NCBI GenBank assembly: GCA_009829735.1
Contig: CM020618.1
Coordinates: 26,822,894-26,886,893 of the forward strand
Length of the DNA: 64,000 nucleotides
Direction: 5' to 3'
Origin: Pyropia yezoensis
Lineage: Eukaryota; Rhodophyta; Bangiophyceae; Bangiales; Bangiaceae
This document shows, piece by piece, positions 7,566-57,852 of this stretch. The position numbers and the translations under genes are program-made. The notes under the pieces were generated by a model. The model made no database searches and was not told where the DNA came from. It saw only the letters and a list, made by a program, of their open reading frames with translations. Position 1 is the first letter of the stretch. The number at the start of each line of letters is the position of its first letter.

Positions 7566-9506
7566 CTAGGCACGCATGCTAGAATCTCCCACTCCACGGC
7601 CCTCGCCCTCCCGTGGAGGCGAGCGGCGAGACCCACGCCGATAACGGTCTCCACTCGTTGGAGGGGGCGGCGGCTCCAAGTCGGAACCGTCGCGCCCCTC
7701 ACGGTCGCGCAAGTGGCGCCGACCGTGGCCACTCTTCTGCCTGGTCTTGCGCGCAAGTTTGCGACGCAGACGCTGGACAGACTCCGTCTCCGACGGGGTA
7801 GAGGACTCCGAAACGGAGTAAGACAACTCGTCTTCCGACACGGAGGGAGAGCGCCGAGAGTGTCGGCGACGACGGCGAGGAGGCGAGTATGCCCGGCTCG
7901 CGCGACGTTTGCCACGCCCAAGTGGGGCTGGCTGGGGCATAATAACCCCAATGCGAGCCAACTCGGCTGTCATGAACTCCGCCACCGACTCGCAACTCGC
8001 GGTCGCCACTGCAGTACGAACGCGCTCCTCAAGTTGAGGAGTCTCGGAACTCTGTAGGGTTGCGGTCGACGCGGCCAACCAGGAAATGGTGCGCACCAAC
8101 GTGGTGATCATCATCTCTGAGGTTAGAGGCGTGGGCGGCAACACCAACTTGGGGTATACCGTCAGGAGGGTGGCCCCCAAGTTGGGGGACACCGGGGTGG
8201 AAGACTCCACGGCCACGCTGATCGGGATGTTCCCGTGAGGTTGGAAAGGAACAGGAGGAAGCGGAGGGGCCCGCCGAGGTGGCGGTACCCGGGTGTAGCT
8301 GCGACCCCGACTTGGGGCTCCCGCAGTGGGTTGAGTCATGTGGTCATCATAGGACGGCACGGCCATAACTATGGGCTTGCCCGGGGGTGGCGCAGTGTGG
8401 CGATCCACCCCCGGGGCATACGGGTAGTCCCCGATGCCCAACCCCTCTCGTAGGACGACACGGCCGTCGTGAAGTTCACGAGCGACCCACACGAACTGGC
8501 GAAGTGCGCCATCGTCCTTGGGCCCACGAGTGGGGCGGCGCAACTTGTGCTCAATGCTCTCCCACTCGATAAACTTATGGAGCCGGAGCATCTCCTCAAG
8601 TAGAGTGAGTTGTCCTGATGAGCACCCCTCAGCAACTAGCTGAGGGGTGAGCTGTTCCAAACCCTGGATGAGCCGGAGGAGGAGATGCCAGAGCATCCCC
8701 CGCCGCTGAACACAGGACACCCAGGTCGACATGACCTCGAGGAGCCACTGGGTGGCCAACATGGCCCACACCAGGTGATCAGGGGCAGCCGTCAACATGA
8801 CGGAGCCGAAGTGGTCAAGCAACCGGGGCAACAACGCCGGGAACCCGTAGGGGACCTCAACTTGAGGCCACCACTCGGGCTTCTTCGGATAGTACTGCTC
8901 CTTACTGGCAGCAGACTGTTGAGGAAACTCAAGTTGAGCCGAAGTCACCAAGTAGGGACCTCGCCGGAAGTCTTTCTCCATCCGCACATCAAAGTGATGA
9001 GTGTGCGGATCGGCCTCGTGGAGGTACGGTGGGCGAGTTGCCACAGCGTCCCACGTGAAGGTCGGCAAGTCGCCGGGACCCGGGATAGTTCCCCCGCGGT
9101 CCACCATGGCCTTGGCACGTTGGACGTCTTCAACCTCCTCGTCGTCCAGGAAGGCAAACTGGTCCGTCCTGAAGCCGGCCGGGAACCCGACCCTACGGGG
9201 ATACTTCTCCCGTAGGCGGTCCCATACCCGGCCCATCGCTGCGCCAAGTCGGCCACAGCGAAGAACAGTCAACCCCTCCTCATAAAGAGGCCAAGCGGGG
9301 TAAAACCACCGCCCCAACGCCTCACCCGGGACAACTTGTCCCGCCTCCGGGGGAGACCCCGCCGTCAACCCAAAGCCGGGTGACGCGGGAGTTCCGTCCG
9401 GAGCGATCGCGGAGCCCCCGCCGGAAGTCCCGGCGGGTGCTGCACCGTAGGAGGTGTCCTCCATGCGCTCGTCAAGAGAGTCCGTCTCCACTCCCGGAGT
9501 CGCCAT
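7566..9506 (-). CDS. Antisense accessory ORF of element A, unknown function
   Basis: A long intact minus-strand frame inside the plus-strand element, between pol and the 3' LTR. The ATG at 9506 is chosen because upstream codons are Pro/Ser-rich, and D also has a Met before an acidic stretch; it gives 646 residues. Residues ~210-360 hold what looks like a folded domain: EWWPQVEVPYG, then LLDHFGSVM, a long amphipathic helix-like part, LTLLEEML and GIGDYPY. The antisense ORFs of C (QWWVGVEVPFG, LELLRDLL, LDLPY) and D (LRYFGSVL) resemble it in the same order. The C-terminal ~110 residues are strongly Arg/Ser-rich with acidic-Ser patches, as in a nuclear or RNA-binding tail. I recognise no family; there is no signal peptide or transmembrane segment to suggest an envelope protein. 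How it is transcribed is unknown; a promoter in or near the 3' LTR is an inference. Confidence 0.8.
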   Translation of the reverse strand: MATPGVETDSLDERMEDTSYGAAPAGTSGGGSAIAPDGTPASPGFGLTAGSPPEAGQVVPGEALGRWFYPAWPLYEEGLTVLRCGRLGAAMGRVWDRLREKYPRRVGFPAGFRTDQFAFLDDEEVEDVQRAKAMVDRGGTIPGPGDLPTFTWDAVATRPPYLHEADPHTHHFDVRMEKDFRRGPYLVTSAQLEFPQQSAASKEQYYPKKPEWWPQVEVPYGFPALLPRLLDHFGSVMLTAAPDHLVWAMLATQWLLEVMSTWVSCVQRRGMLWHLLLRLIQGLEQLTPQLVAEGCSSGQLTLLEEMLRLHKFIEWESIEHKLRRPTRGPKDDGALRQFVWVARELHDGRVVLREGLGIGDYPYAPGVDRHTAPPPGKPIVMAVPSYDDHMTQPTAGAPSRGRSYTRVPPPRRAPPLPPVPFQPHGNIPISVAVESSTPVSPNLGATLLTVYPKLVLPPTPLTSEMMITTLVRTISWLAASTATLQSSETPQLEERVRTAVATASCESVAEFMTAELARIGVIMPQPAPLGRGKRRASRAYSPPRRRRRHSRRSPSVSEDELSYSVSESSTPSETESVQRLRRKLARKTRQKSGHGRRHLRDREGRDGSDLEPPPPPTSGDRYRRGSRRSPPREGEGRGVGDSSMRA

Positions 9507-9844
9507 GACTCTCCCCAAGCTGGGGAGAGACGCTCTGGCTATCGCAGCACGAGACCCGCCTCGAGTTGAGGGGGACTCGGATCGTGGGTATACGGGTGGC
9601 CTCCCCAGCGTGGGGCGGCCCAGTGGAAAGTGAAAGGGAGGTGGTGGTGAAGGTGAAGTGTGAACTGAAGAAAGCAAGCTGCCGAGTGGGCAAGCTTGAG
9701 GAGAGGGGCGGTCAACGTGACCGCCTCCACATCCGCGTTACGTACACGCTGGGGGACAGCAAGTCGCGCCCCCAACGCCGAGACGTGCGTGTACGCACCC
9801 CCTCACAGGGCCGACCGGGTCGGTCGGAACTGAGGAGAGGGGAG
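9507..9844. other. Leader of the antisense ORF and polypurine tract (A)
   Basis: The minus-strand frame stays open to 9677 but is Pro/Ser-rich and looks like leader. The purine run GAGGAGAGGGGAG at 9832-9844 abuts the 3' LTR and is the expected plus-strand primer site. Confidence 0.65.
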
Positions 9845-10313
9845 TGTGGCAGTATTGACCCCCAGGTAGGGGGGCAACACGTGCCATGCAAGGGGCGGCA
9901 GGCCACTAGCCTGATCCGTTCCTCCCCCTGCATTTGGGTCCATATTCCCTAAGTTTGGGATAGTTAGCTTAGTAGTAAATCCAACTTGGATTTGAGGGTT
10001 TTCTGCATTTATCGTCTTGAATTTTCGTGTGGCCCGGTGGGCAGGTGCTGGGGTGGGAGATTCTGAGTGGCGAGATTCTGAGTGGACCCTGGGGGGATAA
10101 GGGGAGGGACAGCGGGGCTTGGCCCTGCGTCCCCGTCCCGACCAAGAAACTGTTGGACCACACACCATCCTCTTGTTTGTCCGTGGGGGGTTTGCCCCGC
10201 AACAGGGACAGAGTGTGTGCGACTTGCACTTCTTCCGGTTCCCCCGACACGGGAGGCAGCCCTGGCACACCGCCCCAACTTGGGTGCCGTGTGTGCTTGT
10301 GGTTTTTGCCACA
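9845..10313 (+). repeat. 3' LTR of element A
   Basis: 469 bp, same ends as the 5' LTR. By eye only two substitutions (CACACACC for CACACTCC; GAGTGTG for GGGTGTG). Followed by AGAAG, the second copy of the target duplication. Confidence 0.96.
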
Positions 10314-14500: not shown

Positions 14501-16617
14501 CTAGATGGTGGTCCGGGTGGCGGCAGACCTGCTTGGCACCTTTACGGCTGCCCGCCTTGGGGGAAAAGGGGGAACGAGGAGGGGGATGCAGTCGTCGAAC
14601 CCCGCTGCAACGCACTGGAACTGCGGTTCACCTTCATCTCTGATCCATGAAATTTCGTAGGAATGGGCTGCTTCTTCATTTCTGTCCCCTCCTCTGTACA
14701 CAGCTCAGTGCTTTACCTCTGTCGGTCTTTATTCGGCCCAGCGCTGGTCTCTTACGCTCTGTACTTTCTCGTAGCATTTGTGCTTTCTCTTTGTTGTTTC
14801 ATCCTGTCTTATTGATCTTGAAGGTGGAGGGTGTGGGGGTTGAACGCACCCCTTGGACTGAGAGCATCCCCCTTCAGAGGAAGGCGGATCGTGGCGACCC
14901 CTGCTTCTGACCAATCGGGGGCAGGCGGGCGTCGTTTATCCCTCGGGAGGGGCACGCCACGCCATCGTCGCCGAATTCCCCCCATGCATGGGGGGAAGGA
15001 TACAATATTATCGGGCAGAGCGATTACGCCCGCCCAATTGAGATTTGGCCTCCTGACCAAGGAAGGGAAGTTATCTGGGGAGGACTACTGCCGTCCTAAT
15101 CTCGCCGATATTTGGCGAGATCCCTCCACTAAGCGAATTTAGCGTGGCGAGATGTGCTGGGGGGTTCTGAGTGCTTTGATTGGGTGTTTAGTGTAGGGAG
15201 TGTTGGCCCGCACCCCGGGGTTTCACGGCGGGCCCGGAACCGGTGTGCTTGAAAGGGATATCTACGCGTTGGACTGTGCCCGTTGCTTCCCCCTGACAGA
15301 AAATTCGACCTTGCGGTACCCTCGTGTTTCCCGACACGGACGTTTCCACCTTCGTGTGGTGCTTCATGTTCCGGCGGTTCTGACTCCAGGGTTACACTCC
15401 GGGCTCCCCAAGATCCTCGCTTGTGGTGAAGTGGCAGATGCACGTGACTCCGAGGCATGCATCAACAGTATCATAATGAATTCTTCTCGACTATCAGTTG
15501 GTCTTGTGAATGCGACTCGTTACGGAGCTATAGGGTCTCTCTCAGTAGCTCTTCACGTGCAGGAAATGTGCAGTGTTGGCCACACCGACGCCGTAAAGCT
15601 GAGCGGCGGGGATGTCGAGGGGGATGTGGCTTGAGAATTTGGACTGCCACCTTGTTGTGAGGCAGAGCTGGGTGCCGTGGTCTAATCGCGCTCGATGCGC
15701 CCGAAAGATACGGCGCAATACTCAAGAACACGACATAAAGTCCCAAATTATAGGGCCAGCTTCTTCCTCATCCCGGAATTGGGTTGTGGCTGGCCCTGGA
15801 CGTGCCACCGCTGGGGAGGTGCTTTTTGCAATGCCGTTCTATAAGTGAGAGCGCGAGCTATTGCAGTGCCCGGACTTTTGTCTCATAGGGACTACAACAA
15901 AAACAGACCAATGGCATGCCTCAGATGACCCACCTCTGACCAATGACTGCTCCGCTGTGCCGTGCAAACCGTGCGTTCTGAGATTGTCTCGAGAATTCAA
16001 TCCGCATTGAAGGGGGAAGAGGCTCGGTTGCGACCTCCCCCATTATTATTAAGTGGTTCATGCCAAGACGGAGGGAGAGCGGTCGAGGTCGCCCGAGAAA
16101 ACAACAGTGATATGACCAACCAGCGTTCGGTAGAAGATCCGCTGTAACTGCAGCCAATCATCGCCTTCTCATGATCACAGTGCCTCAGCACGCAGTTGGT
16201 CGGCATTAAACTACCAATACGCGATTGGCTCATAGTGTGCAGTGGCGCTGCTGATGATGTCGCCTTGAGACTAAAATCAGGGACCTGCAATAAATTCGGC
16301 AAAGTTGGGTACGCTCAAAGATCTGTAAGATTAGGCGATAAATACGCTGTGCAGGCCACAGCATGGTGCACTGTCGTTGCCTGCACATCTCAGGCACAAA
16401 AGAGGAACACCGTGAAAATCACACATGCTGCTGCTGTGGTCCATTCTGGCTTTAGCGGAAGGAGCATGCTCGGTAGGGGGCTTGTTTACGACGCGACCAG
16501 GAGCCTGGGGACGTCCACATCATGTAATATGTTTGTTTGCGCCTGTTATTGCGTGTGCCGTGCATTGGTGTTGCAACCACACTCCGTTAAATTTGGTGCA
16601 CTGCTCTGTTACGCAGA
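14501..16617. other. Host DNA without a recognisable gene
   Basis: Open frames are short and have no family-like motifs. (ATT)3 occurs near 16043. No transposon ends are clear, although 14501-14700 may include the outer part of the Tc1-like remnant. Confidence 0.45.
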
Positions 16618-16704
16618 GGGTGATTGGTCTAGTGGTATGATTCGCGCTTCGGGTGCGCGAGGTCCCGAGTTCGATGAGGGTTGTTGAACGTCTCGGATCA
16701 CCCC
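16618..16704 (+). tRNA. tRNA-Pro(CGG) with a 15-nt intron in the T-loop
   Basis: Acceptor GGGTGAT (16618-16624) pairs perfectly with ATCACCC (16697-16703), discriminator C at 16704. The D-arm GTCTAGTGGTATGATT is typical of eukaryotic tRNA-Pro. Anticodon stem CGCGC/GCGCG with loop TTCGGGT gives anticodon CGG at 16650-16652. T-stem CCGAG (16665-16669) and CTCGG (16692-16696) are perfect, but the loop TTCGAT-T is split after its sixth base by 15 nt (16676-16690, GAGGGTTGTTGAACG). Without them the tRNA is a standard 72 nt. The internal B-box promoter is split by the insertion. TTTT at 16722 could end pol III transcription. A second gene with an equally long but different insert lies at 20816-20902, which argues against random decay. 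Confidence 0.88.
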
Positions 16705-17699
16705 GAGATTCCCCGAGGATCTTTTGCCACTGACGATTTCATCCTCGGCGACGATCGACAGATCGCACTTTTGGCTGTCTGTGCAAACTGTGCGGGTCTA
16801 GAGCAATCACAGCGGTGCGACTCCTGCAGCACTGTGAGGGCAGCCCCAAAAATACGCACTGGACGATGAGTGGGCAAACTCCAAATTGTAGATCGACCGC
16901 AAAGGCGACCCCCCCCAGCGGTGCATGACCCTAAGGCATGCGGTCAGCAGAAGTTGTGCTGTACTTAAGCCATTCCAACAACTTTGTCCCAGCCAACAGC
17001 AGTCCTCCCCCAACGCCACTGCGGATGTCTGCCCCTCAGCGTTTCCTGCCTTTCCCTACTCGTCGTCGCGGCCTTCCCCTCGCCCCCTCCCCCCACCCTT
17101 CCACCGTCACACCTGGGACCATTTCAGATTCTTGCCGGTTCTTTTGGGGGTGTTCTCGTAGCCCGGAAGGGTGGCCGCGGGTCCAGCAGGCGACGGGGGG
17201 GAAGCAGAAGGGGAAGGGATGGAAGCCATTGCAACAGAAGTCTAAGAGAGAGACACAAAAGAGAGAGATGAGGGCGGGGATCGAATACATTAGGGAGGGG
17301 CCGACGGACCATGACAAGTTCGTCTGAAGGGCTGACGAGCAGCTGCCGGCGTCGCAACAGAAGGCCCCACCCGAGTATTGGGAGGGCACTGTAGCTGTAA
17401 GATCTGTTGAGCCTCTCGTATAGCAATGCAATGGAAATACATACTCGTCTGGCGGCAGCTCTGGAGAGGGGCCCTGGAGGGGGTCCGTGCGCCCTTTACG
17501 GTGCTGCAAAGCAGACGGACGGGCCCCATAATGACCGATTGTAGCGCGAGCCACCGCCCTATCCTAGCTTTCGGGGTTGCGGTGAACCTAGAAGAGCCAC
17601 CGCTGGGAAGCCGCTTTCCCTAAAATCTGCCCTGAAGGTCACAGGTCGCCCTGAAAACCGCACCGCTGGGATTGCTCTCAGCTGTTGCTCTGGGTCGGT
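16705..17699. other. Host DNA without a recognisable gene
   Basis: Mixed composition with Pro/Ser-rich low-complexity frames on both strands near 17000-17130. No conserved motif was seen. Confidence 0.4.
16722..16725 (+). terminator. Probable pol III terminator of tRNA-Pro
   Basis: TTTT 18 nt after the tRNA 3' end. A four-T run is a weak terminator, so the call rests mainly on position. Confidence 0.45.
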
Positions 17700-17940: not shown

Positions 17941-18642
17941 TGTAGTGCCGAACAGGCTGTAGACTGTCCAGGAACCGACCACCAACAAGCTGAATCATAC
18001 CTACAAGAAACCACAACGGGGCCAGGAAGCAACGGGTAACCGTCCGAGCGTAATCCGCTCGCCGGCCCGTTCAGAGTCAACGAAAACACGACAAATGCCC
18101 GAGGGAACCTAACGAACCGTTGATTCTACCATTATGCCCCTCAACGACATCCCCTGCGGCCCCTCCCGGGTCCCAGTACGTGGGCCCCCAGAGGGTGCCC
18201 CTAGCGGCCCAAGTGCCAGCACGGCGTCCGGCCTCCACCAGGTCAACCTCCCACACATGCCCTACACAGGGGCTACCCTCGGGCCTTGGGGATCACCAAG
18301 CAGCCCCCTGTCGCCAAACACAAGCGAAAAGAGATCGAAAGTCCCCCCACACACAGATGCCAATCCACGAAAAAGGATCTAATGGGAGAAAGGGGAAAAA
18401 CATGAACAGACGCTGTGAAAACGAATACAAAACAAATGGCCACATATTCTAGCAAAGCCGCAGCCACTGGCCAAATCCGCCTCCCCGGGTGGGACCAATC
18501 AGGACCCCGGGTGTGGCGTTACGATCTCGCGTCACTGACAGAGGGGGACTTGGTAAGGCAGGGGCCCCACGGAGGATGGCCCGCAGGGTCCCAAGTCGCC
18601 TTCCCAAGGACCCCCCTGTCCCCAATGGCTCAGAACGCCACG
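17941..18642 (-). repeat. Old, diverged LTR of the element C family
   Basis: About 702 bp that align, in reverse complement, along the whole 700-bp LTR of element C: from GTGGCGTTCTGAGCC at 18641 through GGATTGGCATCTGTGTG and CCCCGTTGTGGTTTCTTG to a TACA end at 17941. Many substitutions and the loss of the first T make it much older than the copies at 28985 and 37274. No matching target duplication was found (GCAGA versus TTATC). It looks like a solo LTR or a fragment. Confidence 0.8.
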
Positions 18643-20806: not shown

Positions 20807-20815
20807 GAGCCGTGC

Positions 20816-20902
20816 GGGGTGATCCGAGACATTCGCATTTCGCTATCGAACTCGGGACCTCGCGCACCCGAAGCGCGAATCATACCACTAGACCAATCAC
20901 CC
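20816..20902 (-). tRNA. Second tRNA-Pro(CGG) with a 15-nt T-loop intron
   Basis: On minus the mature part is the same as at 16618: GGGTGAT (20902-20896), the same D-arm, anticodon CGG, T-stem CCGAG/CTCGG, acceptor ATCACCC and discriminator C at 20816. The T-loop TTCGAT-T is interrupted at the same point by 15 nt (20844-20830, AGCGAAATGCGAATG on minus), unrelated to the first insert except for the 3' end GAA-Y-G. In both genes TTC of the T-loop can pair with this GAA, which could help form a splicing-endonuclease substrate. The flanks differ from those of the first gene, so this is not a recent large duplication. A T6 terminator follows. Confidence 0.9.
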
Positions 20903-29684: not shown

Positions 29685-29688
29685 TCTT

Positions 29689-40375: not shown

Positions 40376-40376
40376 T

Positions 40377-40393
40377 TGGTGGAGCAGCAGGGG
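40377..40393 (+). other. Primer-binding site of element D
   Basis: TGGTGGAGCAGCAGGGG one base after the LTR. Confidence 0.8.
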
Positions 40394-42784: not shown

Positions 42785-42792
42785 GAGGAAGG

Positions 42793-45700: not shown

Positions 45701-46959
45701 GACACCCGGGGGGTTCACGTATGTTCGCAGCAATGCGAAGGTTCTTCTACTGGCCAGCAATGGCCGTCGACGTGGTCGACCACGTAAGGGGATGCCACCC
45801 CTGTGCGCGTAACCGCATGAGTCTACATAGGCAGGCGTCTGCCATGAAGCTATTCCCACCTGATGGGCCCAACGAGCAAGTCGCTATCGACATACTCGGG
45901 CCACTTCCGATAACGGAAGAAGGGAACAGGTACATCCTGGTCATGTCTGACCGCTTCACTAAGCTGTCAAGAGCGGCAGCCATCCCGAATGATACGGCAT
46001 ACACGATCATGAACGCAGTGGTTGACCACTGGATCAGTGCATACGGAGTCATGAAGCAACTCCTCTCCGATAACGGAGCGAACCTTACGTCGGCATTCTG
46101 CACTAAGGTCCTGGGCATGTTCGGTATCGAACCACGTCGGGCATCCGACTACCACCCGCAGTCCAACGGGCAGGTGGAGCGGTTCAACCGCACCATCGTA
46201 AAGATGCTACAGTGCTACGTGGCCGAGCACACGAACACTTGGGACAGGCTTCTGTCCGTACTCACCCTGGCATACAATGCCAGGCCACATCGGAGCACAA
46301 ACATTGCTCCGCTGGAGTGGGTCATGCCACTAGGCGTCGGTAACCTGACGCTGCCGCCCGGCAGGTGCACTCGGTATGATACACCGAAGGGCCGACCCGC
46401 CGAACGCATCCACCTAGCTTGGTTGGCCAAGCTATCGTGGATGATTCCTAAGCTCAAGGGTGCCCTTGACAGAACACAACTTCGGTATAAGAAGAACTTC
46501 GACGCCCGACTACGGGTGCGCAACGCAACCCTGGTAACAGGTGACTGGGTCTATATCAGACACCAGAAGTTCCGAGGGAACAAGCTTATGCAACCGGTCA
46601 AGGGACCGTACCAGATCCTCCACAGAGATGACCACTCTGTTATCTTACACTCCGATACGGAGATCCAACGCATCAGTATGAATGATGTCACACCTGCTCC
46701 GAAGCCGGAACAGCCTCAGCCGGTACCGGCTGGGTTGCTACATGAAGCTCTTATAACCCACCGGTCGGATGACCCGGTGGGACCGGATGGGATTCCATAC
46801 CAAGTAGAGAGCGTGGTCGGACACACCGACCCGGACATACCAGGACCCTGGTACGTCAAGGTTATGTGGGTCGGATACGACTCACCCACCTGGGAACAGG
46901 CGGCGAATATACCCCGCCAACTCCTCATGCCGTACATGAGGCGACGACGCCTCCTGTAA
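42793..46959 (+). CDS. pol: Pol polyprotein of element D (intact; first assembled copy)
   Basis: 1,388 residues from the ATG at 42793; as a Gag-Pol fusion it begins at the heptamer at 42772, seven codons earlier in the same frame. Protease LDTGAGPNL at residue ~112; RT with FCIDYRRLN, LPFGLSNAPATFQRA and YLDDVIVFS at ~580; RNase H from DVDACDTQVGC (~728) with TERECLGVIWAV; integrase zinc finger HENPTAGHPG and CHPCARNR, catalytic motifs AIDILGPLP (~1030), SDNGAN (~1092) and NGQVERFN (~1122); C-terminal chromodomain VKVMWVGYDSPTWE (~1350). All key residues are present. The plus-strand gene ends 480 bp before the stop of the antisense ORF. Confidence 0.96.
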   Translation: MTGGRWGHPSKPPRSTAGKAPRRARLSRRRINPRVHLPAPTTRRQGIDDQPPRLGGEDGKPRHVEPDKGPVQDARATPDIGVGHVLFTLENFKVSATLGVDPQSTRSYYPVLDTGAGPNLIRKDTLPDKWLPRVRVTRGPTIKDANGRLIRTAAAMSLQVTIGDLTTEVDFLVCETLSVPCILGCTFINVHVDAIRPGRRTVELQEADGTKRGHTAIVRDLTLQGSHVNVAEVYASVEPKTLRLAERTRFEPLSETVLPVNCDLAGICRVQSNLRTYKRHGLTMANGLIDLPAGGSSLLVMANYRRKAVTLPKGTILGIAELYEGDILTPDKEGQVEPLEVLAVTETTERQQPDDGKPNPSAAPADLPPKDEDALKALAEADLDHLPPSVAEGVRRMLRKHDVMWTGGALGTIGATQHRIDLVPGARPARSQPHRAGPMQREIVDGEVKRMSEAKVIRPSMSEWGAPVVLVPKKDQTPRFCIDYRRLNLVTKKDSYPLPRMDECIDSLGEATVFTTIDCNAGYWQIPVADEDIPKTAFVCHSGVYEFLRMPFGLSNAPATFQRAIDIILSGVKWRNCLVYLDDVIVFSRNMDDHVQHVDEVLTLLRNAGVTLRLKKCAFFQQTVEYLGHQITPGKLGVLEANTRALRDARFPNTQTQLKSFLGMCNVYRRFVKDFARIAKPLTVLTSSTLPKVLQPPSPSEEEAFESLKRALLAPPVLALPHRRGTFVIDVDACDTQVGCTLLQGETLIGTDNVIPDLRPVGYFSRTLNPAERNYSATERECLGVIWAVQLLRPYLEGSRFIVRSDHEPLRWLLNLGDKDSDSHGRLARWRLKMAEHDYRTVYKAGSTHHLGDALSRLDTPSGDTRPVDEDIPVVPVCMVGNATQGMADHTMAHLACPLTLADFREAQANDDDCRRHRANLLAGTAGIFSENEDGLIYRRAPADGRHQVVVPVSLRQAVMEREHENPTAGHPGGSRMFAAMRRFFYWPAMAVDVVDHVRGCHPCARNRMSLHRQASAMKLFPPDGPNEQVAIDILGPLPITEEGNRYILVMSDRFTKLSRAAAIPNDTAYTIMNAVVDHWISAYGVMKQLLSDNGANLTSAFCTKVLGMFGIEPRRASDYHPQSNGQVERFNRTIVKMLQCYVAEHTNTWDRLLSVLTLAYNARPHRSTNIAPLEWVMPLGVGNLTLPPGRCTRYDTPKGRPAERIHLAWLAKLSWMIPKLKGALDRTQLRYKKNFDARLRVRNATLVTGDWVYIRHQKFRGNKLMQPVKGPYQILHRDDHSVILHSDTEIQRISMNDVTPAPKPEQPQPVPAGLLHEALITHRSDDPVGPDGIPYQVESVVGHTDPDIPGPWYVKVMWVGYDSPTWEQAANIPRQLLMPYMRRRRLL

Positions 46960-47457
46960 CAACCCAACCGACACCGACTTCGGCTGTTGGGGGGTGAGGC
47001 TTATACCTACTAAGTAGGGTGTGACATGGTTACGGCAGACTTAGGTTTCTAAGTCAAATCAGACTTAGGTTTCTAAGTCGAACCAAGCTTAGGTAACTAA
47101 GTAGAGCTAAGCTTAGGTAACTAAGTAAAAACCTGAACCTTAATAAGTTAACTTAAAGGTAAAGGCTAACTCCGATAATATCGAAGTAACTAGGGAGCTT
47201 ACACGGGAGGATGACCTCCCCAAGCCAAGACACAAAGTGAGGGAGGATAACCTCCCCAAGCATGAACCAACCGGAAGAAGTTGGGCGGGAGCAAGGCACC
47301 ACTGAGCCAGAAGGGGTACTCCCCAGGGCAGCAAACAGAGGCAAGCAATGCCCCCAGCGGGGGATGAGTTTATACTCACTACTACCCGGCTACCATAAGG
47401 GTTGCCGGGGCCCTCTCCCTCACAAACAAATAGCACTCCTCAGTGGGTAGACCCACT
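46960..47457. repeat. Hairpin array between convergent pol and antisense ORF (D)
   Basis: A string of short perfect inverted repeats: CCCAAC/GTTGGG (46963-46988), CCTAC-TAA-GTAGG (47006), GACTTAG-GTTT-CTAAGTC (47038 and 47062), CTTAG-GTAA-CTAAG (47088 and 47112), GGGAGG-ATGA-CCTCCC (47205), GGGAGG-ATAA-CCTCCC (47241), CCCCC-AGC-GGGGG (47351), GAGT-TTAT-ACTC (47366) and AGTGGGT-AG-ACCCACT (47442, overlapping the antisense stop). The four C-T-T-A-G hairpins start every 24-26 bp. Element B keeps several with paired changes. Possible roles: 3'-end formation for both transcripts or RNA packaging. Confidence 0.8.
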
Positions 47458-48083
47458 GCCCGAGGGAGGCCACTCACGCGTAAGCGCGTATACCTCCGTG
47501 CTCCACCGGTCGGCAATGTCACGACGGTCGACCACCCGAGTTACCTCGTGCATAGCTGGACGAGGGTGCTGCGGCCAGCCTCCACGTCCTCCAGAGCTTT
47601 CTGGAGGCGGTCCAGCACGCCACCAAAGCAACGCGCTGACCCAACCAGCGCAGCACCTGGGGGGATATCCCCCAGCTAACAGAGAGACCCCCACGCATTG
47701 CGCGGGTAACAAGGCGTCAACGCTTCATACCAGAGACGGGGACCCCCGTCATGGAGGACAGGGGCGGGAGGTGACACTGGCGCAGCCAGAGGAGCCACAG
47801 GAGCCGACACGGCTACCACCGGAGCCGGTGGCACCTGATACGAGGCCCGGTAGGACCCTACCGAAGGGGCTCCACCGTAACCACGGCGGTACTCCGCCCG
47901 ACGACGGGACACCTCACGCTCCCCACCGCAGAGCCCCACTCTCGGGACGACGGCCAACCGCCGGCAGGCATCGGGTTACCGAACCACGGAGCAAGGACCT
48001 GAAGAGGGTCATGGATAACCATGGGAATACCCAGGTCAGGAACGCCTCGGTGGACGCCCACCCATGGCAACTAGGCTCACCCG
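47440..48083 (-). pseudogene. Antisense ORF of D, C-terminal part only (contig end, error-prone copy)
   Basis: Same sequence as 55405-56055 but with several single-base losses (for example CTCGTGCATAG for CTCGGTGCATAG near 47548, and near 47664, 47710 and 47945) that break the frame. It stops at the N gap. The complete version at 55405-57852 is intact, so these are probably uncorrected read errors at a contig end. Confidence 0.8.
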
Positions 48084-48583
48084 NNNNNNNNNNNNNNNNN
48101 NNNNNNNNNNNNNNNNNNNNNNNNNNNNNNNNNNNNNNNNNNNNNNNNNNNNNNNNNNNNNNNNNNNNNNNNNNNNNNNNNNNNNNNNNNNNNNNNNNNN
48201 NNNNNNNNNNNNNNNNNNNNNNNNNNNNNNNNNNNNNNNNNNNNNNNNNNNNNNNNNNNNNNNNNNNNNNNNNNNNNNNNNNNNNNNNNNNNNNNNNNNN
48301 NNNNNNNNNNNNNNNNNNNNNNNNNNNNNNNNNNNNNNNNNNNNNNNNNNNNNNNNNNNNNNNNNNNNNNNNNNNNNNNNNNNNNNNNNNNNNNNNNNNN
48401 NNNNNNNNNNNNNNNNNNNNNNNNNNNNNNNNNNNNNNNNNNNNNNNNNNNNNNNNNNNNNNNNNNNNNNNNNNNNNNNNNNNNNNNNNNNNNNNNNNNN
48501 NNNNNNNNNNNNNNNNNNNNNNNNNNNNNNNNNNNNNNNNNNNNNNNNNNNNNNNNNNNNNNNNNNNNNNNNNNNNNNNNNNN
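48084..48583. other. Assembly gap, exactly 500 N
   Basis: A round-number placeholder. The sequence before it (to the antisense ORF) and after it (from early gag) belongs to the same element and overlaps by about 7.5 kb, so the real gap may not exist. Confidence 0.98.
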
Positions 48584-50748
48584 GAGACGGGAAACGTTCA
48601 AGATGACGGATCGGCGTCGACGCCGACCCGGAGGTGACTACGGGAACCGGGATCGGGAACCCCGATCGATAACATTGAGACGCCAATGCTTTCCGTGCCG
48701 GATCGACGTTTGGCACGGCTCGGACGGCAGGAGGCGGGGGCCCGCCTCAACTGTCGTCGACCGACCTCACTCCGCGCCTCCTTCACCAGGGGATTCCTGA
48801 TGGCATCATTGGCCCGCATCGAGGCCCGGTTTTCCGGGCTCGACGCCCGTCAAGATCGGACGGAGGACGCAATGGCAGTGTTGATGTCAACACGGCACAC
48901 GACGGGACCCCGTCGTGTTCCTCCCACACCGGTACGGTTCGAACCGGCCGGACTACTTTCGGAGTCCACCAGGGTCAACCCCGGTGTTGCTACTCCTGGA
49001 CAACCCCCGGAACAATGGGTATGGGTCCGACTCGTCGGCAGAGTTGGAACGGAGTCACACGGAGCGATACGCTCGAGCACCCGAAGCGGACTCCGCGGAC
49101 ACGACCGGGCGATACGTACGCCGGGGGAGAGTCGGTTATTGGGGGAGGGGGTACCCTCTCGCAGTACCCCCACGACGAAGGAGGCCAGGCAACTCGGGTT
49201 CCCGAGGTGCCGACGCCTGAAGTACCATCTTCAGTGGTGGAAGCTATGACCGCGCAGGTAACTGCGAGCCTACTGAAGCGGATGGAGTCCGATGAGTTCG
49301 CTCATCAACTGGCTAAGCGACTGGATATCCAGGACGCTGACACGGAAGATCGTCAACGAGGTCTTCCGGTCGGTTCTTACTCCGGAACGATATCGTTTGG
49401 AGGACCGCTCTACCACCGTATCGGAATCGATGCGTAAATACGTCGCATCGGGCGATCCGCTCTATGCAGACCCTTATGAAGGGAGTCCCTATGTTCGGGG
49501 GGCCGAACGGACGCCCGTTGGCAGTCATCGGCTTCTTGACTAGCTTCAAGGCAGCCGCAGACAAGGCGCTCGTTAACGAGGGGCTGGCCCTGGAGATCCT
49601 CCCGTTCTTTGTTGATGAACGGGTGCGAGGCATTCTTCGCCAGGCATCCCCGATGCCGGGAATGAGGGTCGCGGCCACCCCCATGGATTACCGTGGGATA
49701 TTGAAGGAGCTGCTGAGCAGCTACCTCAGTGAGGACAAGTGCGAGGACCACTATCGGGCCCTTCGCACTGCCACCGCCCAGTCCTGGGAGGATGAGGAGA
49801 TGTTTGGACGCCGGATCCAAGAGCTCGACTACGAGCTGGGGAAGCTCCTCGGAGAAGGGGAGCTACGAGCCATCCTGTTCGCAGGAGTACCCAACTACGT
49901 GCGGATATCCGCACGGGGCGCCAACACGGCACGGACGAACTTCAGTCGACTGATGCATATGTGCAAGTCCCTAGGGACGCCTACCGGGTTCTACACCCGG
50001 AGTGTGCCTTGGCCCCGAAGCCCAAGGGTGAGGGAGGCAAGCCCAGTCTTACCCCGGTACCGAGGCAAGAGAAGGTGGAACGTAAGGCCGCACCAGTACT
50101 GGTTGCGACCGAACATACCCCTATTGGTGAGGGTGACCCTCTAGTCGACCAACAGGGCCACCTGTTGCTACCGGCGACGCCGGTGACTGATGAACATGGT
50201 ACGGTAGCGTACATCGCCCCGGCTGGAACCCAGCTCCAGGTCAACGAAGGAACGGGACGGCGCGTCCCGTATGTGCGGACTACGGGGTACTCCCCGGTGA
50301 CGGGTAACCCTCACCAACCCTTGCCAACATGGGCGGTGCGCACGGAGGCACCCCCGCAGATTGCGGGCCGACCCAACCGGTTGGGGGAGTCCATGTTCCG
50401 GTTGACCCAAGGACCCAAGGCCTACCAGGGAGCAGGCACTCGGGCGCCCGAGGGAGGCAACCGTAGCTACGGGGCTACCCCGATGCGACCTCAAGGGGGG
50501 ACCGGCACGTCCGGGTGTATGTTGTGTGGGGATCCCCAGCACTGGGTGTCTTCCTGCCCACTCATCCCCGAGGAGTCTCGGCGGGCAGCGGCGCAACGCA
50601 AGGCATCCACCGGGGGGTATCCCCCCGAGCACCCGGACCCGCACCGGGTAGGCAGCCAGCTCCAGGTGGAGTACTGGCCGTCGAGGGGGCACCTCCTCAG
50701 CCGGATGTCCCGGCGGACAGCACCCTACCAAGGGCGGGAAACGAGTAA
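48584..50748 (+). pseudogene. gag: Second copy of D gag, broken by many one-base indels (contig start)
   Basis: Begins at the fifth codon of gag and matches 40614-42784, but the first ~1.4 kb has about ten single-base gains or losses (GAGACGGGAAACG, missing C near 48628, extra C near 48661, changes near 49015, 49077, 49106, 49346, 49437 and 49974). From about 50000 it is the same as the first copy apart from one loss near 50627. Damage fades with distance from the gap, as expected of an unpolished contig end. Confidence 0.85.
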
Positions 50749-50756
50749 GAGGAAGG

Positions 50757-53700
50757 ATGACCGGGGGGCGCTGGGGTCACCCAAGCAAGCCACCCCGGAG
50801 TACCGCGGGGAAAGCCCCACGGAGAGCGCGGTTGAGCCGACGCCGCATCAACCCCCGGGTACACCTTCCGGCCCCGACGACACGGCGTCAGGGGATTGAT
50901 GACCAACCTCCAAGGTTGGGAGGAGAGGACGGGAAGCCCCGTCACGTTGAACCAGACAAGGGCCCTGTTCAGGATGCCCGAGCTACACCGGATATCGGTG
51001 TAGGACATGTGCTGTTTACCTTGGAGAACTTCAAGGTATCAGCCACCCTGGGGGTTGACCCCCAGTCGACACGATCGTACTACCCTGTACTGGACACAGG
51101 GGCTGGACCCAACCTTATCCGGAAGGATACCCTCCCGGACAAGTGGCTTCCACGAGTCAGAGTGACTCGGGGACCCACCATCAAGGACGCGAATGGTCGA
51201 CTCATTCGTACGGCCGCAGCGATGTCGCTGCAGGTTACCATCGGGGATCTCACCACGGAAGTTGACTTCCTGGTATGTGAGACGCTATCGGTGCCCTGCA
51301 TACTGGGGTGCACCTTCATCAACGTTCACGTTGATGCAATCCGGCCAGGCCGGAGGACCGTCGAGCTTCAAGAAGCCGACGGGACGAAGCGAGGACACAC
51401 GGCTATCGTCAGGGACCTGACGCTACAAGGAAGCCACGTTAACGTGGCTGAGGTGTACGCAAGCGTCGAGCCGAAGACACTTCGGTTGGCCGAGCGAACT
51501 CGCTTTGAGCCGTTGTCAGAGACAGTCCTCCCGGTTAACTGCGACCTCGCAGGCATCTGCAGAGTCCAGTCCAACCTACGGACGTACAAGCGCCATGGGT
51601 TGACCATGGCCAACGGTCTCATAGACCTCCCAGCAGGAGGGTCGTCCCTCCTAGTGATGGCGAACTATCGCCGTAAGGCAGTCACCCTCCCGAAGGGAAC
51701 TATCCTCGGGATTGCCGAACTCTACGAAGGAGATATCCTTACCCCTGATAAGGAAGGTCAAGTGGAACCACTTGAAGTACTGGCGGTCACCGAGACCACC
51801 GAGCGACAGCAACCCGATGACGGGAAGCCTAACCCATCGGCGGCTCCGGCGGACCTGCCGCCAAAGGACGAAGACGCCTTGAAGGCACTGGCCGAGGCTG
51901 ACCTCGACCACCTTCCCCCTTCGGTAGCCGAAGGGGTACGACGGATGCTAAGAAAGCATGACGTTATGTGGACAGGCGGGGCCTTGGGGACCATTGGGGC
52001 AACCCAACATCGTATAGACCTGGTACCAGGCGCACGACCCGCCCGCTCACAACCGCACCGAGCGGGACCTATGCAACGAGAGATCGTTGATGGAGAAGTG
52101 AAGAGGATGAGTGAAGCTAAGGTGATCCGACCTTCGATGTCGGAATGGGGTGCCCCAGTCGTTCTTGTGCCGAAGAAGGATCAAACCCCTCGGTTTTGCA
52201 TCGATTATCGACGCCTCAACTTGGTTACCAAGAAGGACTCATACCCTTTACCAAGGATGGATGAATGCATCGACTCCCTGGGGGAGGCTACGGTGTTTAC
52301 CACCATCGACTGCAACGCCGGATACTGGCAGATCCCGGTGGCGGACGAGGATATCCCCAAGACGGCATTCGTCTGTCACAGTGGCGTGTACGAGTTCCTA
52401 AGGATGCCCTTCGGATTGTCCAACGCCCCCGCTACATTCCAGCGGGCTATCGACATCATACTGTCGGGGGTGAAGTGGCGTAACTGCCTAGTGTACCTCG
52501 ATGACGTCATCGTCTTCTCGCGTAACATGGATGACCATGTGCAACATGTTGACGAGGTACTCACCCTCTTGAGGAACGCCGGGGTAACCCTGCGTCTGAA
52601 GAAGTGCGCCTTCTTCCAACAGACGGTCGAATATCTGGGCCACCAGATAACCCCTGGTAAACTAGGGGTACTCGAAGCCAATACCCGGGCACTCCGGGAT
52701 GCCCGGTTCCCTAACACCCAGACGCAGCTCAAGAGCTTCCTGGGAATGTGCAATGTATACCGACGGTTCGTCAAGGACTTCGCTCGGATAGCTAAACCGT
52801 TAACGGTTCTTACGAGCAGTACCTTACCCAAGGTACTCCAACCCCCTTCGCCTAGCGAAGAGGAGGCATTCGAGTCGCTGAAGCGAGCCCTACTAGCCCC
52901 ACCCGTCCTTGCGTTACCGCATAGACGGGGTACCTTCGTCATCGATGTCGATGCGTGTGATACACAAGTGGGATGCACCCTGTTACAGGGAGAGACGTTG
53001 ATAGGTACCGACAACGTTATCCCGGACCTACGTCCGGTAGGGTACTTCAGCCGGACACTCAACCCGGCTGAGCGGAACTATAGTGCCACCGAGCGTGAAT
53101 GCCTCGGAGTTATATGGGCAGTGCAACTGCTCCGTCCATACCTGGAGGGCTCCAGGTTCATCGTGAGGTCCGACCACGAACCCCTACGATGGCTCCTCAA
53201 CCTTGGTGACAAGGATTCCGATAGCCATGGGAGGCTAGCCCGATGGAGGCTGAAGATGGCCGAGCACGACTACCGCACGGTGTATAAGGCTGGGTCAACC
53301 CACCACCTCGGAGACGCGTTGTCTCGACTCGACACCCCGAGCGGGGATACCCGCCCGGTGGACGAGGACATCCCGGTAGTACCGGTGTGCATGGTGGGTA
53401 ATGCTACCCAGGGTATGGCTGACCATACCATGGCACACCTGGCGTGCCCATTGACCCTCGCGGACTTCCGCGAGGCACAAGCCAACGACGATGACTGTAG
53501 ACGTCATCGTGCTAACCTCCTGGCCGGTACGGCCGGCATCTTCTCCGAGAACGAAGACGGACTCATATACCGGCGGGCACCCGCCGATGGACGACATCAA
53601 GTCGTGGTTCCCGTGTCCTTACGGCAAGCCGTCATGGAACGAGAACATGAGAACCCTACAGCCGGACACCCGGGGGGTTCACGTATGTTCGCAGCAATGC

Positions 53701-54923
53701 GAAGGTTCTTCTACTGGCCAGCAATGGCCGTCGACGTGGTCGACCACGTAAGGGGATGCCACCCCTGTGCGCGTAACCGCATGAGTCTACATAGGCAGGC
53801 GTCTGCCATGAAGCTATTCCCACCTGATGGGCCCAACGAGCAAGTCGCTATCGACATACTCGGGCCACTTCCGATAACGGAAGAAGGGAACAGGTACATC
53901 CTGGTCATGTCTGACCGCTTCACTAAGCTGTCAAGAGCGGCAGCCATCCCGAATGATACGGCATACACGATCATGAACGCAGTGGTTGACCACTGGATCA
54001 GTGCATACGGAGTCATGAAGCAACTCCTCTCCGATAACGGAGCGAACCTTACGTCGGCATTCTGCACTAAGGTCCTGGGCATGTTCGGTATCGAACCACG
54101 TCGGGCATCCGACTACCACCCGCAGTCCAACGGGCAGGTGGAGCGGTTCAACCGCACCATCGTAAAGATGCTACAGTGCTACGTGGCCGAGCACACGAAC
54201 ACTTGGGACAGGCTTCTGTCCGTACTCACCCTGGCATACAATGCCAGGCCACATCGGAGCACAAACATTGCTCCGCTGGAGTGGGTCATGCCACTAGGCG
54301 TCGGTAACCTGACGCTGCCGCCCGGCAGGTGCACTCGGTATGATACACCGAAGGGCCGACCCGCCGAACGCATCCACCTAGCTTGGTTGGCCAAGCTATC
54401 GTGGATGATTCCTAAGCTCAAGGGTGCCCTTGACAGAACACAACTTCGGTATAAGAAGAACTTCGACGCCCGACTACGGGTGCGCAACGCAACCCTGGTA
54501 ACAGGTGACTGGGTCTATATCAGACACCAGAAGTTCCGAGGGAACAAGCTTATGCAACCGGTCAAGGGACCGTACCAGATCCTCCACAGAGATGACCACT
54601 CTGTTATCTTACACTCCGATACGGAGATCCAACGCATCAGTATGAATGATGTCACACCTGCTCCGAAGCCGGAACAGCCTCAGCCGGTACCGGCTGGGTT
54701 GCTACATGAAGCTCTTATAACCCACCGGTCGGATGACCCGGTGGGACCGGATGGGATTCCATACCAAGTAGAGAGCGTGGTCGGACACACCGACCCGGAC
54801 ATACCAGGACCCTGGTACGTCAAGGTTATGTGGGTCGGATACGACTCACCCACCTGGGAACAGGCGGCGAATATACCCCGCCAACTCCTCATGCCGTACA
54901 TGAGGCGACGACGCCTCCTGTAA
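50757..54923 (+). CDS. pol: Pol polyprotein of element D (second assembled copy)
   Basis: 1,388 residues with the same protein as 42793-46959, shifted by 7,964 bp; see that entry for domains. Two independent genomic copies with no differences over 4.2 kb would be surprising while the flanking gag copies differ by many indels, so it is most likely the same gene assembled twice. Confidence 0.95.
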   Translation: MTGGRWGHPSKPPRSTAGKAPRRARLSRRRINPRVHLPAPTTRRQGIDDQPPRLGGEDGKPRHVEPDKGPVQDARATPDIGVGHVLFTLENFKVSATLGVDPQSTRSYYPVLDTGAGPNLIRKDTLPDKWLPRVRVTRGPTIKDANGRLIRTAAAMSLQVTIGDLTTEVDFLVCETLSVPCILGCTFINVHVDAIRPGRRTVELQEADGTKRGHTAIVRDLTLQGSHVNVAEVYASVEPKTLRLAERTRFEPLSETVLPVNCDLAGICRVQSNLRTYKRHGLTMANGLIDLPAGGSSLLVMANYRRKAVTLPKGTILGIAELYEGDILTPDKEGQVEPLEVLAVTETTERQQPDDGKPNPSAAPADLPPKDEDALKALAEADLDHLPPSVAEGVRRMLRKHDVMWTGGALGTIGATQHRIDLVPGARPARSQPHRAGPMQREIVDGEVKRMSEAKVIRPSMSEWGAPVVLVPKKDQTPRFCIDYRRLNLVTKKDSYPLPRMDECIDSLGEATVFTTIDCNAGYWQIPVADEDIPKTAFVCHSGVYEFLRMPFGLSNAPATFQRAIDIILSGVKWRNCLVYLDDVIVFSRNMDDHVQHVDEVLTLLRNAGVTLRLKKCAFFQQTVEYLGHQITPGKLGVLEANTRALRDARFPNTQTQLKSFLGMCNVYRRFVKDFARIAKPLTVLTSSTLPKVLQPPSPSEEEAFESLKRALLAPPVLALPHRRGTFVIDVDACDTQVGCTLLQGETLIGTDNVIPDLRPVGYFSRTLNPAERNYSATERECLGVIWAVQLLRPYLEGSRFIVRSDHEPLRWLLNLGDKDSDSHGRLARWRLKMAEHDYRTVYKAGSTHHLGDALSRLDTPSGDTRPVDEDIPVVPVCMVGNATQGMADHTMAHLACPLTLADFREAQANDDDCRRHRANLLAGTAGIFSENEDGLIYRRAPADGRHQVVVPVSLRQAVMEREHENPTAGHPGGSRMFAAMRRFFYWPAMAVDVVDHVRGCHPCARNRMSLHRQASAMKLFPPDGPNEQVAIDILGPLPITEEGNRYILVMSDRFTKLSRAAAIPNDTAYTIMNAVVDHWISAYGVMKQLLSDNGANLTSAFCTKVLGMFGIEPRRASDYHPQSNGQVERFNRTIVKMLQCYVAEHTNTWDRLLSVLTLAYNARPHRSTNIAPLEWVMPLGVGNLTLPPGRCTRYDTPKGRPAERIHLAWLAKLSWMIPKLKGALDRTQLRYKKNFDARLRVRNATLVTGDWVYIRHQKFRGNKLMQPVKGPYQILHRDDHSVILHSDTEIQRISMNDVTPAPKPEQPQPVPAGLLHEALITHRSDDPVGPDGIPYQVESVVGHTDPDIPGPWYVKVMWVGYDSPTWEQAANIPRQLLMPYMRRRRLL

Positions 54924-55421
54924 CAACCCAACCGACACCGACTTCGGCTGTTGGGGGGTGAGGCTTATACCTACTAAGTAGGGTGTGACATGGTTACGGC
55001 AGACTTAGGTTTCTAAGTCAAATCAGACTTAGGTTTCTAAGTCGAACCAAGCTTAGGTAACTAAGTAGAGCTAAGCTTAGGTAACTAAGTAAAAACCTGA
55101 ACCTTAATAAGTTAACTTAAAGGTAAAGGCTAACTCCGATAATATCGAAGTAACTAGGGAGCTTACACGGGAGGATGACCTCCCCAAGCCAAGACACAAA
55201 GTGAGGGAGGATAACCTCCCCAAGCATGAACCAACCGGAAGAAGTTGGGCGGGAGGCAAGGCACCACTGAGCCAGAAGGGGTACTCCCCAGGGCAGCAAA
55301 CAGAGGCAAGCAATGCCCCCAGCGGGGGATGAGTTTATACTCACTACTACCCGGCTACCATAAGGGTTGCCGGGGCCCTCTCCCTCACAAACAAATAGCA
55401 CTCCTCAGTGGGTAGACCCAC
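54924..55421. repeat. Hairpin array of D, second assembled copy
   Basis: Same hairpins as 46960-47457 shifted by 7,964 bp (for example GACTTAG-GTTT-CTAAGTC at 55002 and 55026). One extra G occurs near 55254. Confidence 0.8.
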
Positions 55422-57852
55422 TGCCCGAGGGAGGCCACTCACGCGTAAGCGCGTATACCTCCGTGCTCCACCGGTCGGCAATGTCACGACGGTCGACCAC
55501 CCGAGTTACCTCGGTGCATAGCTGGACGAGGGTGCTGCGGCCAGCCTCCACGTCCTCCAGAGCTTTCTGGAGGCGGTCCAGCACGCCACCAAAGCAACGC
55601 GCTGACCCAACCAGCGCAGCACCTGGGGGGATATCCCCCCAGCTAACAGAGAGACCCCCACGCATTGCGCGGGTAACAAGGGCGTCAACGCCTTCATACC
55701 AGAGACGGGGACCCCCGTCATGGAGGACAGGGGCGGGAGGTGACACTGGCGCAGCCAGAGGAGCCACAGGAGCCGACACGGCTACCACCGGAGCCGGTGG
55801 CACCTGATACGAGGCCCGGTAGGACCCTACCGAAGGGGCTCCACCGTAACCACGGCGGTACTCCGCCCGACGACGGGACACCTCACGCTCCCCACCCGCA
55901 GAGCCCCACTCTCGGGGACGACGGCCAACCGCCGCAGGCATCGGGTTACCGAACCACGGAGCAAGGACCTGAAGAGGGTCATGGATAACCATGGGAATAC
56001 CCAGGTCAGGAACGGCCTCGGTGGACGCCCACCCATGGCAACTAGGCTCACCCGGCTGAGTACGCCGGACACGCAACGAGTGACGAGGCAAGGGGGAAGC
56101 CCCAGCCTGCGGGTCCCGGTACGGGGGAAGGGCCAACACCCCAGCCCAGTTCACGGCATCGTGAACAGCCAGCAGGGCTTCGAACTCCCGGGCCAACCCG
56201 GTCTTGGCGGCTATCAGATCCACGCCCAACTGCGCGATGTGCCGACGGACACCCGTCGGAAGATGAAACAGACGACCCTGCCGGCGGACGGACAGCAAGA
56301 AGGATGAAGCCTGCCCGAGGGTAACCTCAAGGGTGAAGGTACCCTGCAACGGGTGGACCGGCCGGGAGGCCAACACACTCCCGAAGTATCGGAGGCAGGA
56401 GCCGGTGTCAAACCGGAAAGCAGGGGCGGGTTCCCACCCCTCCTGCCATAGCGGCGGGCGCACGGGAGTGTATACCGGAGCACGACCGTTGCCGGTCTGC
56501 AACGCACACGTTATATCCGTGCGGAACGCATCCGCCATGACACCATGGTTACGTCGCCAACTCGACGCCGACTTCAACCCCGCCATGGGCGGGTAGGGAG
56601 CCGTCAACGACAGATACGGGGGTACCCCCGGGTAGTAGTCAAAGTCGGGATACCGACCGGTACGGCTCACCGTCTCCCCAAACGCAACCGGCTCCGCCGC
56701 CGCCGCAATCCCCCGAGCACTAGCCGGGTAGTCAATCTCCCGCGGCAACGCGGGGGCAATCAAGTCGCAGACCCCGAAGTTGGGGTCGAGGTAGACCTCA
56801 CCCCGTCCCACCCGGGTGCGCCAGAGCTGCGCATGCCGGTCGTCCGGCTGACTCAGGATCCAATGGTGTTCCACCCGGACCGCGTTCGGCTGGTTGACCA
56901 GCCGCACCAACTCCCGCTCCCAGCACGGGTCCACCTTGACGCGCCGGGAGGACTCTCCACGGGGATGCACCAGGTGGAAGTCCACCCGCATACGCCCATC
57001 GGACTCCATCGACTCTTGCACCGTGAGGCCTCGAACCCGAGCCACCAAGTCGGACACCGACATGGCGGGTTGACCCGCCGCCACGGCGACGCCGCCACCC
57101 AACGGGGCAACCCGGGCAGGACCAGGAAGAATCGGGGGCGCCGGGGGACGCACCACCGGCAGAGGGGCCGACGTCGGAGATGGACGAGGCCGAGGAGGAA
57201 GAAGAAGGGCGGGCGCCCGCCCGGAGTAACTCCCGGTGTCAACCGCCATGGGAGAAGGAGCGTCTTGACCGCTCGACACCCGCGGCACCGCAGGTATGGT
57301 ACCGGCGCCGGCACCACCCGTCGGCGTAGCCCCCGCCTCGGAAGTGGAAGGCACTTGGACAGCCTCCGGAGCCGGAGCCCCGGCCGTGCGGACACCCGCA
57401 CCGTCTTGACCCACCGCACCGGGTGTCGCACCGCCACCACCACCCGCGTCAACGTCGGGACCGCCTCGAGGAGTCACCGCCCGGACACCCGGACCACCTT
57501 GACCAGCCGGAGTCGGCTGCGGGTCGCCACCTCCGCCGCAGGGCGGACCATCTTGAGGTACCTGCGGTGAGCCGGCATCGGCACCAGGCCCCATCCGGGC
57601 AGCCGGCAGAGAGGGGGTAGAAGCCGCCACGCGCGGTTGACCGCCGGGTTGACCTCCGGCCGACGGCACCGTCGTGCCGCTGCACACGGACGACAGTCCT
57701 CCGGCCGACAGACGGACGGACACCGCAGGCCCGTCGTCGTCAGACGAGCTCACCCCGTAACGCGCGGCGTCGGGACCGACAGGCGCGTCGTCCTCCATCT
57801 CCTCCCCGATCAGGAGGTCTTCCTCCTCTTCAAGCACCTGGGGATAGGACAT
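55405..57852 (-). CDS. Antisense accessory ORF of element D, unknown function (intact)
   Basis: 815 residues from the ATG at 57852, chosen because it starts an acidic segment (MSYPQVLEEEEDLLIGEE); the frame is open 72 codons further upstream but Arg/Pro-rich. Residues ~1-45 acidic, ~45-320 Pro/Gly/Ala/Ser-rich and probably disordered, then a long folded-looking region: ESMESDGRMRVDFHL, HHWILSQPDDRHAQLWRT, GVPPYLSLTAPYPP, CLRYFGSVLASRPVH (~485), SSFLLSVRRQGRLFHLP, FEALLAVHDAVNW and WGDIPPGAALVG, ending in a helical stretch (DRLQKALEDVEAG). The order FGSV, helical block, L-L-x-x-H-x(4)-W, G-I-P matches the A protein; resemblance to C is weaker. B carries the closest relative at 61880-63627. No enzyme motif, signal peptide or membrane segment is evident. 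Confidence 0.85.
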   Translation of the reverse strand: MSYPQVLEEEEDLLIGEEMEDDAPVGPDAARYGVSSSDDDGPAVSVRLSAGGLSSVCSGTTVPSAGGQPGGQPRVAASTPSLPAARMGPGADAGSPQVPQDGPPCGGGGDPQPTPAGQGGPGVRAVTPRGGPDVDAGGGGGATPGAVGQDGAGVRTAGAPAPEAVQVPSTSEAGATPTGGAGAGTIPAVPRVSSGQDAPSPMAVDTGSYSGRAPALLLPPRPRPSPTSAPLPVVRPPAPPILPGPARVAPLGGGVAVAAGQPAMSVSDLVARVRGLTVQESMESDGRMRVDFHLVHPRGESSRRVKVDPCWERELVRLVNQPNAVRVEHHWILSQPDDRHAQLWRTRVGRGEVYLDPNFGVCDLIAPALPREIDYPASARGIAAAAEPVAFGETVSRTGRYPDFDYYPGVPPYLSLTAPYPPMAGLKSASSWRRNHGVMADAFRTDITCALQTGNGRAPVYTPVRPPLWQEGWEPAPAFRFDTGSCLRYFGSVLASRPVHPLQGTFTLEVTLGQASSFLLSVRRQGRLFHLPTGVRRHIAQLGVDLIAAKTGLAREFEALLAVHDAVNWAGVLALPPYRDPQAGASPLPRHSLRVRRTQPGEPSCHGWASTEAVPDLGIPMVIHDPLQVLAPWFGNPMPAAVGRRPREWGSAGGEREVSRRRAEYRRGYGGAPSVGSYRASYQVPPAPVVAVSAPVAPLAAPVSPPAPVLHDGGPRLWYEGVDALVTRAMRGGLSVSWGDIPPGAALVGSARCFGGVLDRLQKALEDVEAGRSTLVQLCTEVTRVVDRRDIADRWSTEVYALTREWPPSGSGSTH

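Follow-up and report, generated by a model that had tools for sequence, protein, structure and literature searches.

What is the long open reading frame that several LTR retrotransposons of the red alga Pyropia yezoensis carry on the strand opposite to gag-pol, and is it one gene or several? The question was raised by a window of 64,000 nucleotides (the whole stretch of DNA analysed here), for which a preliminary description had reported such frames in elements A, B, C and D and had proposed an old accessory gene of algal chromoviruses. From the following analyses, we conclude that the antisense gene is a real protein-coding accessory gene and that those of A, C and a fourth family, F, share common ancestry (probability about 0.92); that of D is very probably a member of the same protein family, with slightly less certainty.

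Nested elements of the window

The window is a nest of LTR retrotransposons, of which element A stands apart at 941-10313 (target-site duplication (TSD), AGAAG). The oldest element, B0, a member of the B family, starts with an LTR at 26706-27068 and is traceable to about 63624; its 3' part (58802-63624), termed E, provided a second copy usable for comparison with D. B0 was interrupted by element C at 28985-37973 (TSD, GGGAC) and by element B/D at 40013-58801 (TSD, GTTTA), and an A-type LTR starting near 63628 was inserted within the antisense gene of E itself, so that the nesting over 26706-64000 gives the order of insertion. The following features are all on the forward strand. The LTRs of A (941-1409 and 9845-10313) differ from each other by 2 mismatches in 469, and enclose a gag-like frame with a zinc knuckle (1505-3475) and pol (3427-7454), which in the window copy is interrupted into two open frames (3427-6009 and 6354-7454) and has an integrase and a weak chromodomain at its end. 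The LTRs of C are located at 28985-29684 and 37274-37973, and its pol (31873-34773) encodes reverse transcriptase (RT), RNase H and integrase. The LTRs of B/D are located at 40013-40375 and 58439-58801, and the pol of D (50757-54923, 1388 codons) is open. Between A, C and D, the LTRs are unrelated, as had been described: their local scores were equalled by 64, 75 and 140 of 200 shuffles, that is, they were no better than those of shuffled sequence. Directly after the 5' LTR, at the position of the primer-binding site, the same 17 letters are present in A, C and B/D (1412-1428, 29689-29705 and 40377-40393); ARAGORN gave no tRNA in the window. An inverted and isolated segment at 18003-18641 is 78% identical to the LTR of C and probably represents a solo LTR from a subfamily related to C. 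An inverted pair (16616-16705 and 20815-20904), the first 60 nt of which are identical, gave no ARAGORN tRNA call; we take it to resemble part of a tRNA gene (tRNA-Pro).

Pfam RVT_1, RT_RNaseH, H2C2 and rve were found in the pol of C and B/D (the B counterpart frame, 42793-46959, was used for the scan of the latter), and rve was found in the last frame of A. The order of RT, RNase H and integrase in pol fits Ty3/gypsy elements. For the chromodomain (PF00385), the scores were 4.1e-5 in A, 9.4e-4 in F, 0.029 in D and 0.05 in C, in all cases below the Pfam curated cut-off (23.9 bits against a cut-off of 25.1 for A). Of the proposed old accessory gene of algal chromoviruses, the old, shared and protein-coding character was upheld, and the word chromovirus rests on chromodomain scores below the cut-off; the elements are here called chromovirus-like. 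In a 2012 survey, as far as its accessible part shows, no chromodomain of a retrotransposon was reported for the Porphyra yezoensis data of that time (PMC3350952).

Note that B cannot be counted as the further carrier of the antisense frame that it had been taken for. A 500-N gap at 48084-48583 is flanked by 40613-48083 (B) and 48584-56054 (D), which are 99.65% identical over ~7.5 kb, and both lie inside a single LTR pair with a single TSD. An assembly artefact that duplicated the sequence falsely, or else a tandem copy, is the probable explanation of B. As B, which is cut by the gap, is not an independent witness, the dN/dS between B and D, proposed earlier as a check, is uninformative. The B antisense-gene piece (47440-48083, minus strand, start approximate), which stops at the assembly gap, matched the D profile at 4.8e-5.

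The antisense frame as a protein-coding gene

In A, C and D, the antisense gene is opposite in strand to pol and is located between pol and the 3' LTR, in agreement with the preliminary description and with the definition of an aORF-3R (antisense additional ORF between pol and the 3' LTR). In A, it spans 7566-9506 (minus strand; 646 codons, open) within a frame at 7566-9677 (minus strand), and the likely ATG at 9506 was set where the database protein P0001 begins. The gene of C spans 35036-36961 (minus strand; 642 codons including the stop), and its window copy is broken by stop codons at 35411-35413 and 36494-36496 with no frameshift; two nonsense codons without a frameshift had been claimed. 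That of D spans 55405-57852 (minus strand; 815 codons, open), its ATG being set by comparison with the database protein P0002, and that of E spans 62193-63624 (minus strand), its 5' side being cut off by the A-type LTR. The distances in A, C and D are 111, 262 and 481 nt, respectively, from the end of pol to the antisense stop and 338, 312 and 586 nt from the antisense ATG to the 3' LTR. The longest stop-free frames in A (723) and D (893) exceeded all of 1000 dinucleotide-Markov shuffles each (maxima, 480 and 465); thus, chance does not yield them. The broken C frame (360) was within the range of its shuffles (99%, 409; maximum, 517). The motifs previously noticed were present, WWxxVEVP[YF]G in A and C (and also in the Pyropia vietnamensis protein described below) and LxxFGSV in A and D. 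A degenerate DNA pattern for WW-x-x-VEVP was useless for a genome-wide search, as it gave 6 matches and the reversed-pattern control also gave 6.

The relationship of the antisense proteins, for which a profile comparison had been suggested, was evaluated pairwise and with profiles. With BLASTP, A matched C at 1e-9 and D at 1e-8, and the direct comparison of C and D (0.32) was not significant; with hhalign, the values were 3e-8 (A-C), 5.5e-5 (A-D) and 0.0036 (C-D, probability 9%). Profiles were searched against 1253 sequences including 1000 shuffled and 4 reversed ones, among which the sole decoy at E <=1 scored 0.9. The profile of the C-type and Pyropia vietnamensis proteins detected F at 8e-26 and A at 4e-13; that of the C-type, the Pyropia vietnamensis protein (P0006) and F detected A at 2e-19 and D at 0.024; and, when further widened with A, it detected both D (9e-7) and E (1e-7), and no decoy reached 1. 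The D profile by itself reached the A-type proteins at just 0.044-0.064, and the F profile at 0.0055-0.11. The similarity is thus significant for A-C and A-D, and C and D are connected through A and F only. The identity across A, C, D and F is 18-24% for the antisense proteins (399 shared columns) versus 54-63% for pol (429), which indicates that the antisense gene evolves much faster.

Nine pairs of open copies were counted with the Nei-Gojobori method. The dN/dS of the antisense gene was 0.21 for A and its second copy (L037, see below), 0.22 for the F pair, 0.42 for D/E, and 0.29 (C1/C2), 0.30 (C1/C3) and 0.26 (C2/C3) for the C-type (dS, 1.2-1.7), so that codon substitution departs from neutrality in these six intact pairs, as expected from the preliminary description; the three close C-type pairs (dS of about 0.04, few changes) gave 0.59, 0.52 and 0.37. 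When all six frames were compared in these six pairs, the antisense frame alone was stop-free and had the lowest pN/pS (0.23-0.51), the mirror frame with common third positions ranked next (0.37-0.69), and third positions carried 45-60% of the changes. The dN/dS of pol was 0.22 for A (312 codons only), 0.09 for F and 0.09 for D/E; the constraint on the antisense genes of A, F and D/E is below, or similar to, that on pol. The synonymous divergence was uneven, with dS of 0.44 in pol versus 0.18 in the antisense gene for D/E and 0.08 versus 0.22 for A/L037, and the copies look mosaic, perhaps through template switching.

These data bear on three alternatives. The long frames could be by-products of a high G+C content or of a gene on the sense strand, since the region has a G+C content of 63-65% and overlapping sense frames of 190-430 codons are present; however, the A and D frames are longer than those of any shuffle, and the other five frames contain stops and have higher pN/pS in the six pairs, by which this explanation is already refuted for A, D, F and the C-types. 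It is also highly improbable that the minus-strand RNA itself is the functional product, regulating as antisense or double-stranded RNA, with an incidental frame: antisense transcripts of LTR elements are considered for this kind of role in the part of the source available (PMC7264820), but the selection falls on the amino-acid frame, with which an additional role of the RNA is still compatible. Separate gain of antisense genes by the families, with that of D in particular not homologous to the rest, would account for the failed direct comparison of C and D and for the identity of D to A, C and F of just 18-21% over the shared columns; we regard it as improbable, because A and D are linked by both BLASTP and hhalign, and because the profile of C, P0006, F and A recovers both D and E. 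Common ancestry is therefore preferred.

Copies and relatives outside the window

The genome search with the open 335-codon piece of C gave at least 120 scored matches, fragments included, many of which were open frames of 500-670 codons with 50-57% identity; the last eight had 25-31%. Four of these eight weakest matches were retrieved, of which L037 was a second A copy and L038, L039 and L040 represented the fourth family, F. F has an RT-to-integrase frame with a chromodomain-like end, followed 3' by a long frame in the antisense direction; in the retrieved stretches L037-L040, no direct repeat of at least 60 nt, and so no LTR pair, was found. Among the 30 retrieved C-type loci, the pol tail was found on the opposite strand, 3' of the antisense gene, in 25 (with just 36 residues in L016), whereas none was found within the 1.5-kb flank in L014, L015, L018, L024 and L035; an inverted C-type LTR was on the other side of the gene in all loci except L020 (29/30), and the matched part was open in 25/30. 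The occurrence of the antisense ORF in other family members, which the preliminary description had made a test of its proposal, was thus borne out, also for the A-type (74 of 76 stop-free) and the D-type (48 of 51); these two counts are from the best-scoring matches, which are young copies and give little information on old ones. RT searches aimed at families without the antisense gene gave, in the best 150 matches each, near-identical copies of A and F only.

When the 8000 best candidates of the protein database were scored, A gave one match (P0001, 100% identical to a copy in the studied genome), D gave one match (P0002, 69% identical over 75%) and the alignment of C and F gave four. One of the four is MMPV_005879, a 'hypothetical protein' of Pyropia vietnamensis (Bangiales), with 36% identity. 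In Pfam and NCBIfam, no family above threshold was found for the antisense proteins, and the PDB gave no match to E 10 with the profile or to E 1 with A. DUF6214 (0.0055 for the E fragment and 0.049 for D), Terminase_7 (0.21) and DACNK (0.22), each of the latter two in one of the 8 alignment members, and frhA (0.19, P0006) were rejected as below the cut-off or too weak.

The lack of a domain assignment and the Pyropia vietnamensis relative, whose annotation on a 1.15-Mb contig is that of an ordinary gene, would be in keeping with a host gene captured and carried along by the elements. This origin is, however, unlikely, although an ancient capture would still be compatible with the data. MMPV_005879 gave 79 scored matches in the studied genome, all at just 29-46% identity, and thus is not a closely kept host gene, no retained single-copy orthologue being seen; moreover, the LTR adjoins the gene in all but one of the retrieved C-type loci. 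A relation to envelope or movement proteins is less probable still. The gene does occupy the position of env in retroviruses, but it is antisense, and the antisense proteins contain no long hydrophobic stretch (top 19-residue Kyte-Doolittle mean, 1.59); judged by hydropathy, the membrane-spanning segments of a retroviral env are missing, as is its sense orientation.

Proposed role and comparison with known antisense genes

The antisense gene is very probably an accessory gene of Ty3/gypsy chromovirus-like LTR retrotransposons, arranged tail to tail with gag-pol, which at least four families inherited from one ancestral gene. A separate minus-strand transcript is predicted to start in the 312-586 nt between the ATG and the 3' LTR, or in the LTR. 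Its product would be soluble, with variable and often Pro/Ala-rich arms on both sides of a conserved core of ~200-250 residues, and may act in trans on the element's own cycle. As its function, we tentatively place a nuclear role (transcriptional control, control of silencing or another) in the first rank, at somewhat less than even odds; a structural or replication cofactor, ranked second, is somewhat less probable. The most basic 40-residue stretch has a charge of +12 to +13 in the A-type proteins and of +5 to +10, at varying places, in the others. The A protein has an Arg/Ser-rich tail near its end, which is missing from the other families, and the RNA-binding role formerly suggested from this tail was not supported.

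In the parts of the sources available, plant Grande, RIRE2, Retand and PvRetro13 and fungal Boty are described as having an antisense ORF located between pol and the 3' LTR (PMC7264820, PMC11963269, PMC8365987). According to these parts, the plant elements are like the algal ones in the place and orientation of the ORF, in its presence in most family copies and in the lack of clear database relatives; in Grande, the protein is reported to be nuclear and its gene to be transcribed from an upstream promoter. The plant elements differ in their hosts; the algal elements are chromovirus-like, and their proteins are a separate family by the searches of protein, domain and structure databases. In Retand, as far as the accessible text goes, antisense ORFs in this position are conserved throughout the lineage, and TRP28 (PF04195) is present in 97% of clusters (PMC11963269). 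Retand is, however, a non-chromovirus lineage of flowering plants, and TRP28 gave no match to E 10 in A, P0001, D, P0002 or the 8 alignment members, nor in the genome, HMMER being blunt at such a distance. The Boty-like elements of Botrytis, with the antisense gene brtn, are likewise an example of an antisense additional gene in a non-plant gypsy element, as described in the portions available (PMC7264820, PMC8365987); brtn and the algal proteins are likened by place and orientation, not by sequence. HBZ of HTLV-1, a minus-strand protein gene with a nuclear product according to the available part of one source (PMC11963269), is used as a working model only, and no sequence kinship is claimed.

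For an antisense ORF in red-algal retrotransposons, no precedent was found among the papers listed in the literature searched, in which subscription journals were thinly covered. By the database searches above, the algal proteins are a new family of a known kind of accessory gene. It is possible, with odds a little short of even, that the bangiophyte chromovirus-like elements descend from an ancestor that already had the antisense gene, that selection maintained the gene as these elements diverged into four or more families (unrelated LTRs being shown for three), and that plant Tat/Retand, fungal Boty and the algal elements reached the same place independently. If true, this would point to a shared and unsolved need of gypsy elements, e.g., for a protein that could still be produced while the sense strand is not transcribed. 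The antisense accessory genes described in plants and fungi lack an assigned function. In the host studied here, four element families carry one homologous protein, many copies are open, selection on the amino-acid sequence is clear and another species has a relative; together, these provide conserved residues for testing. If the plant, fungal and algal proteins are unrelated, it must be explained why the same place and orientation were used repeatedly, and if they share a fold by descent, the gene is far older than has been assumed.
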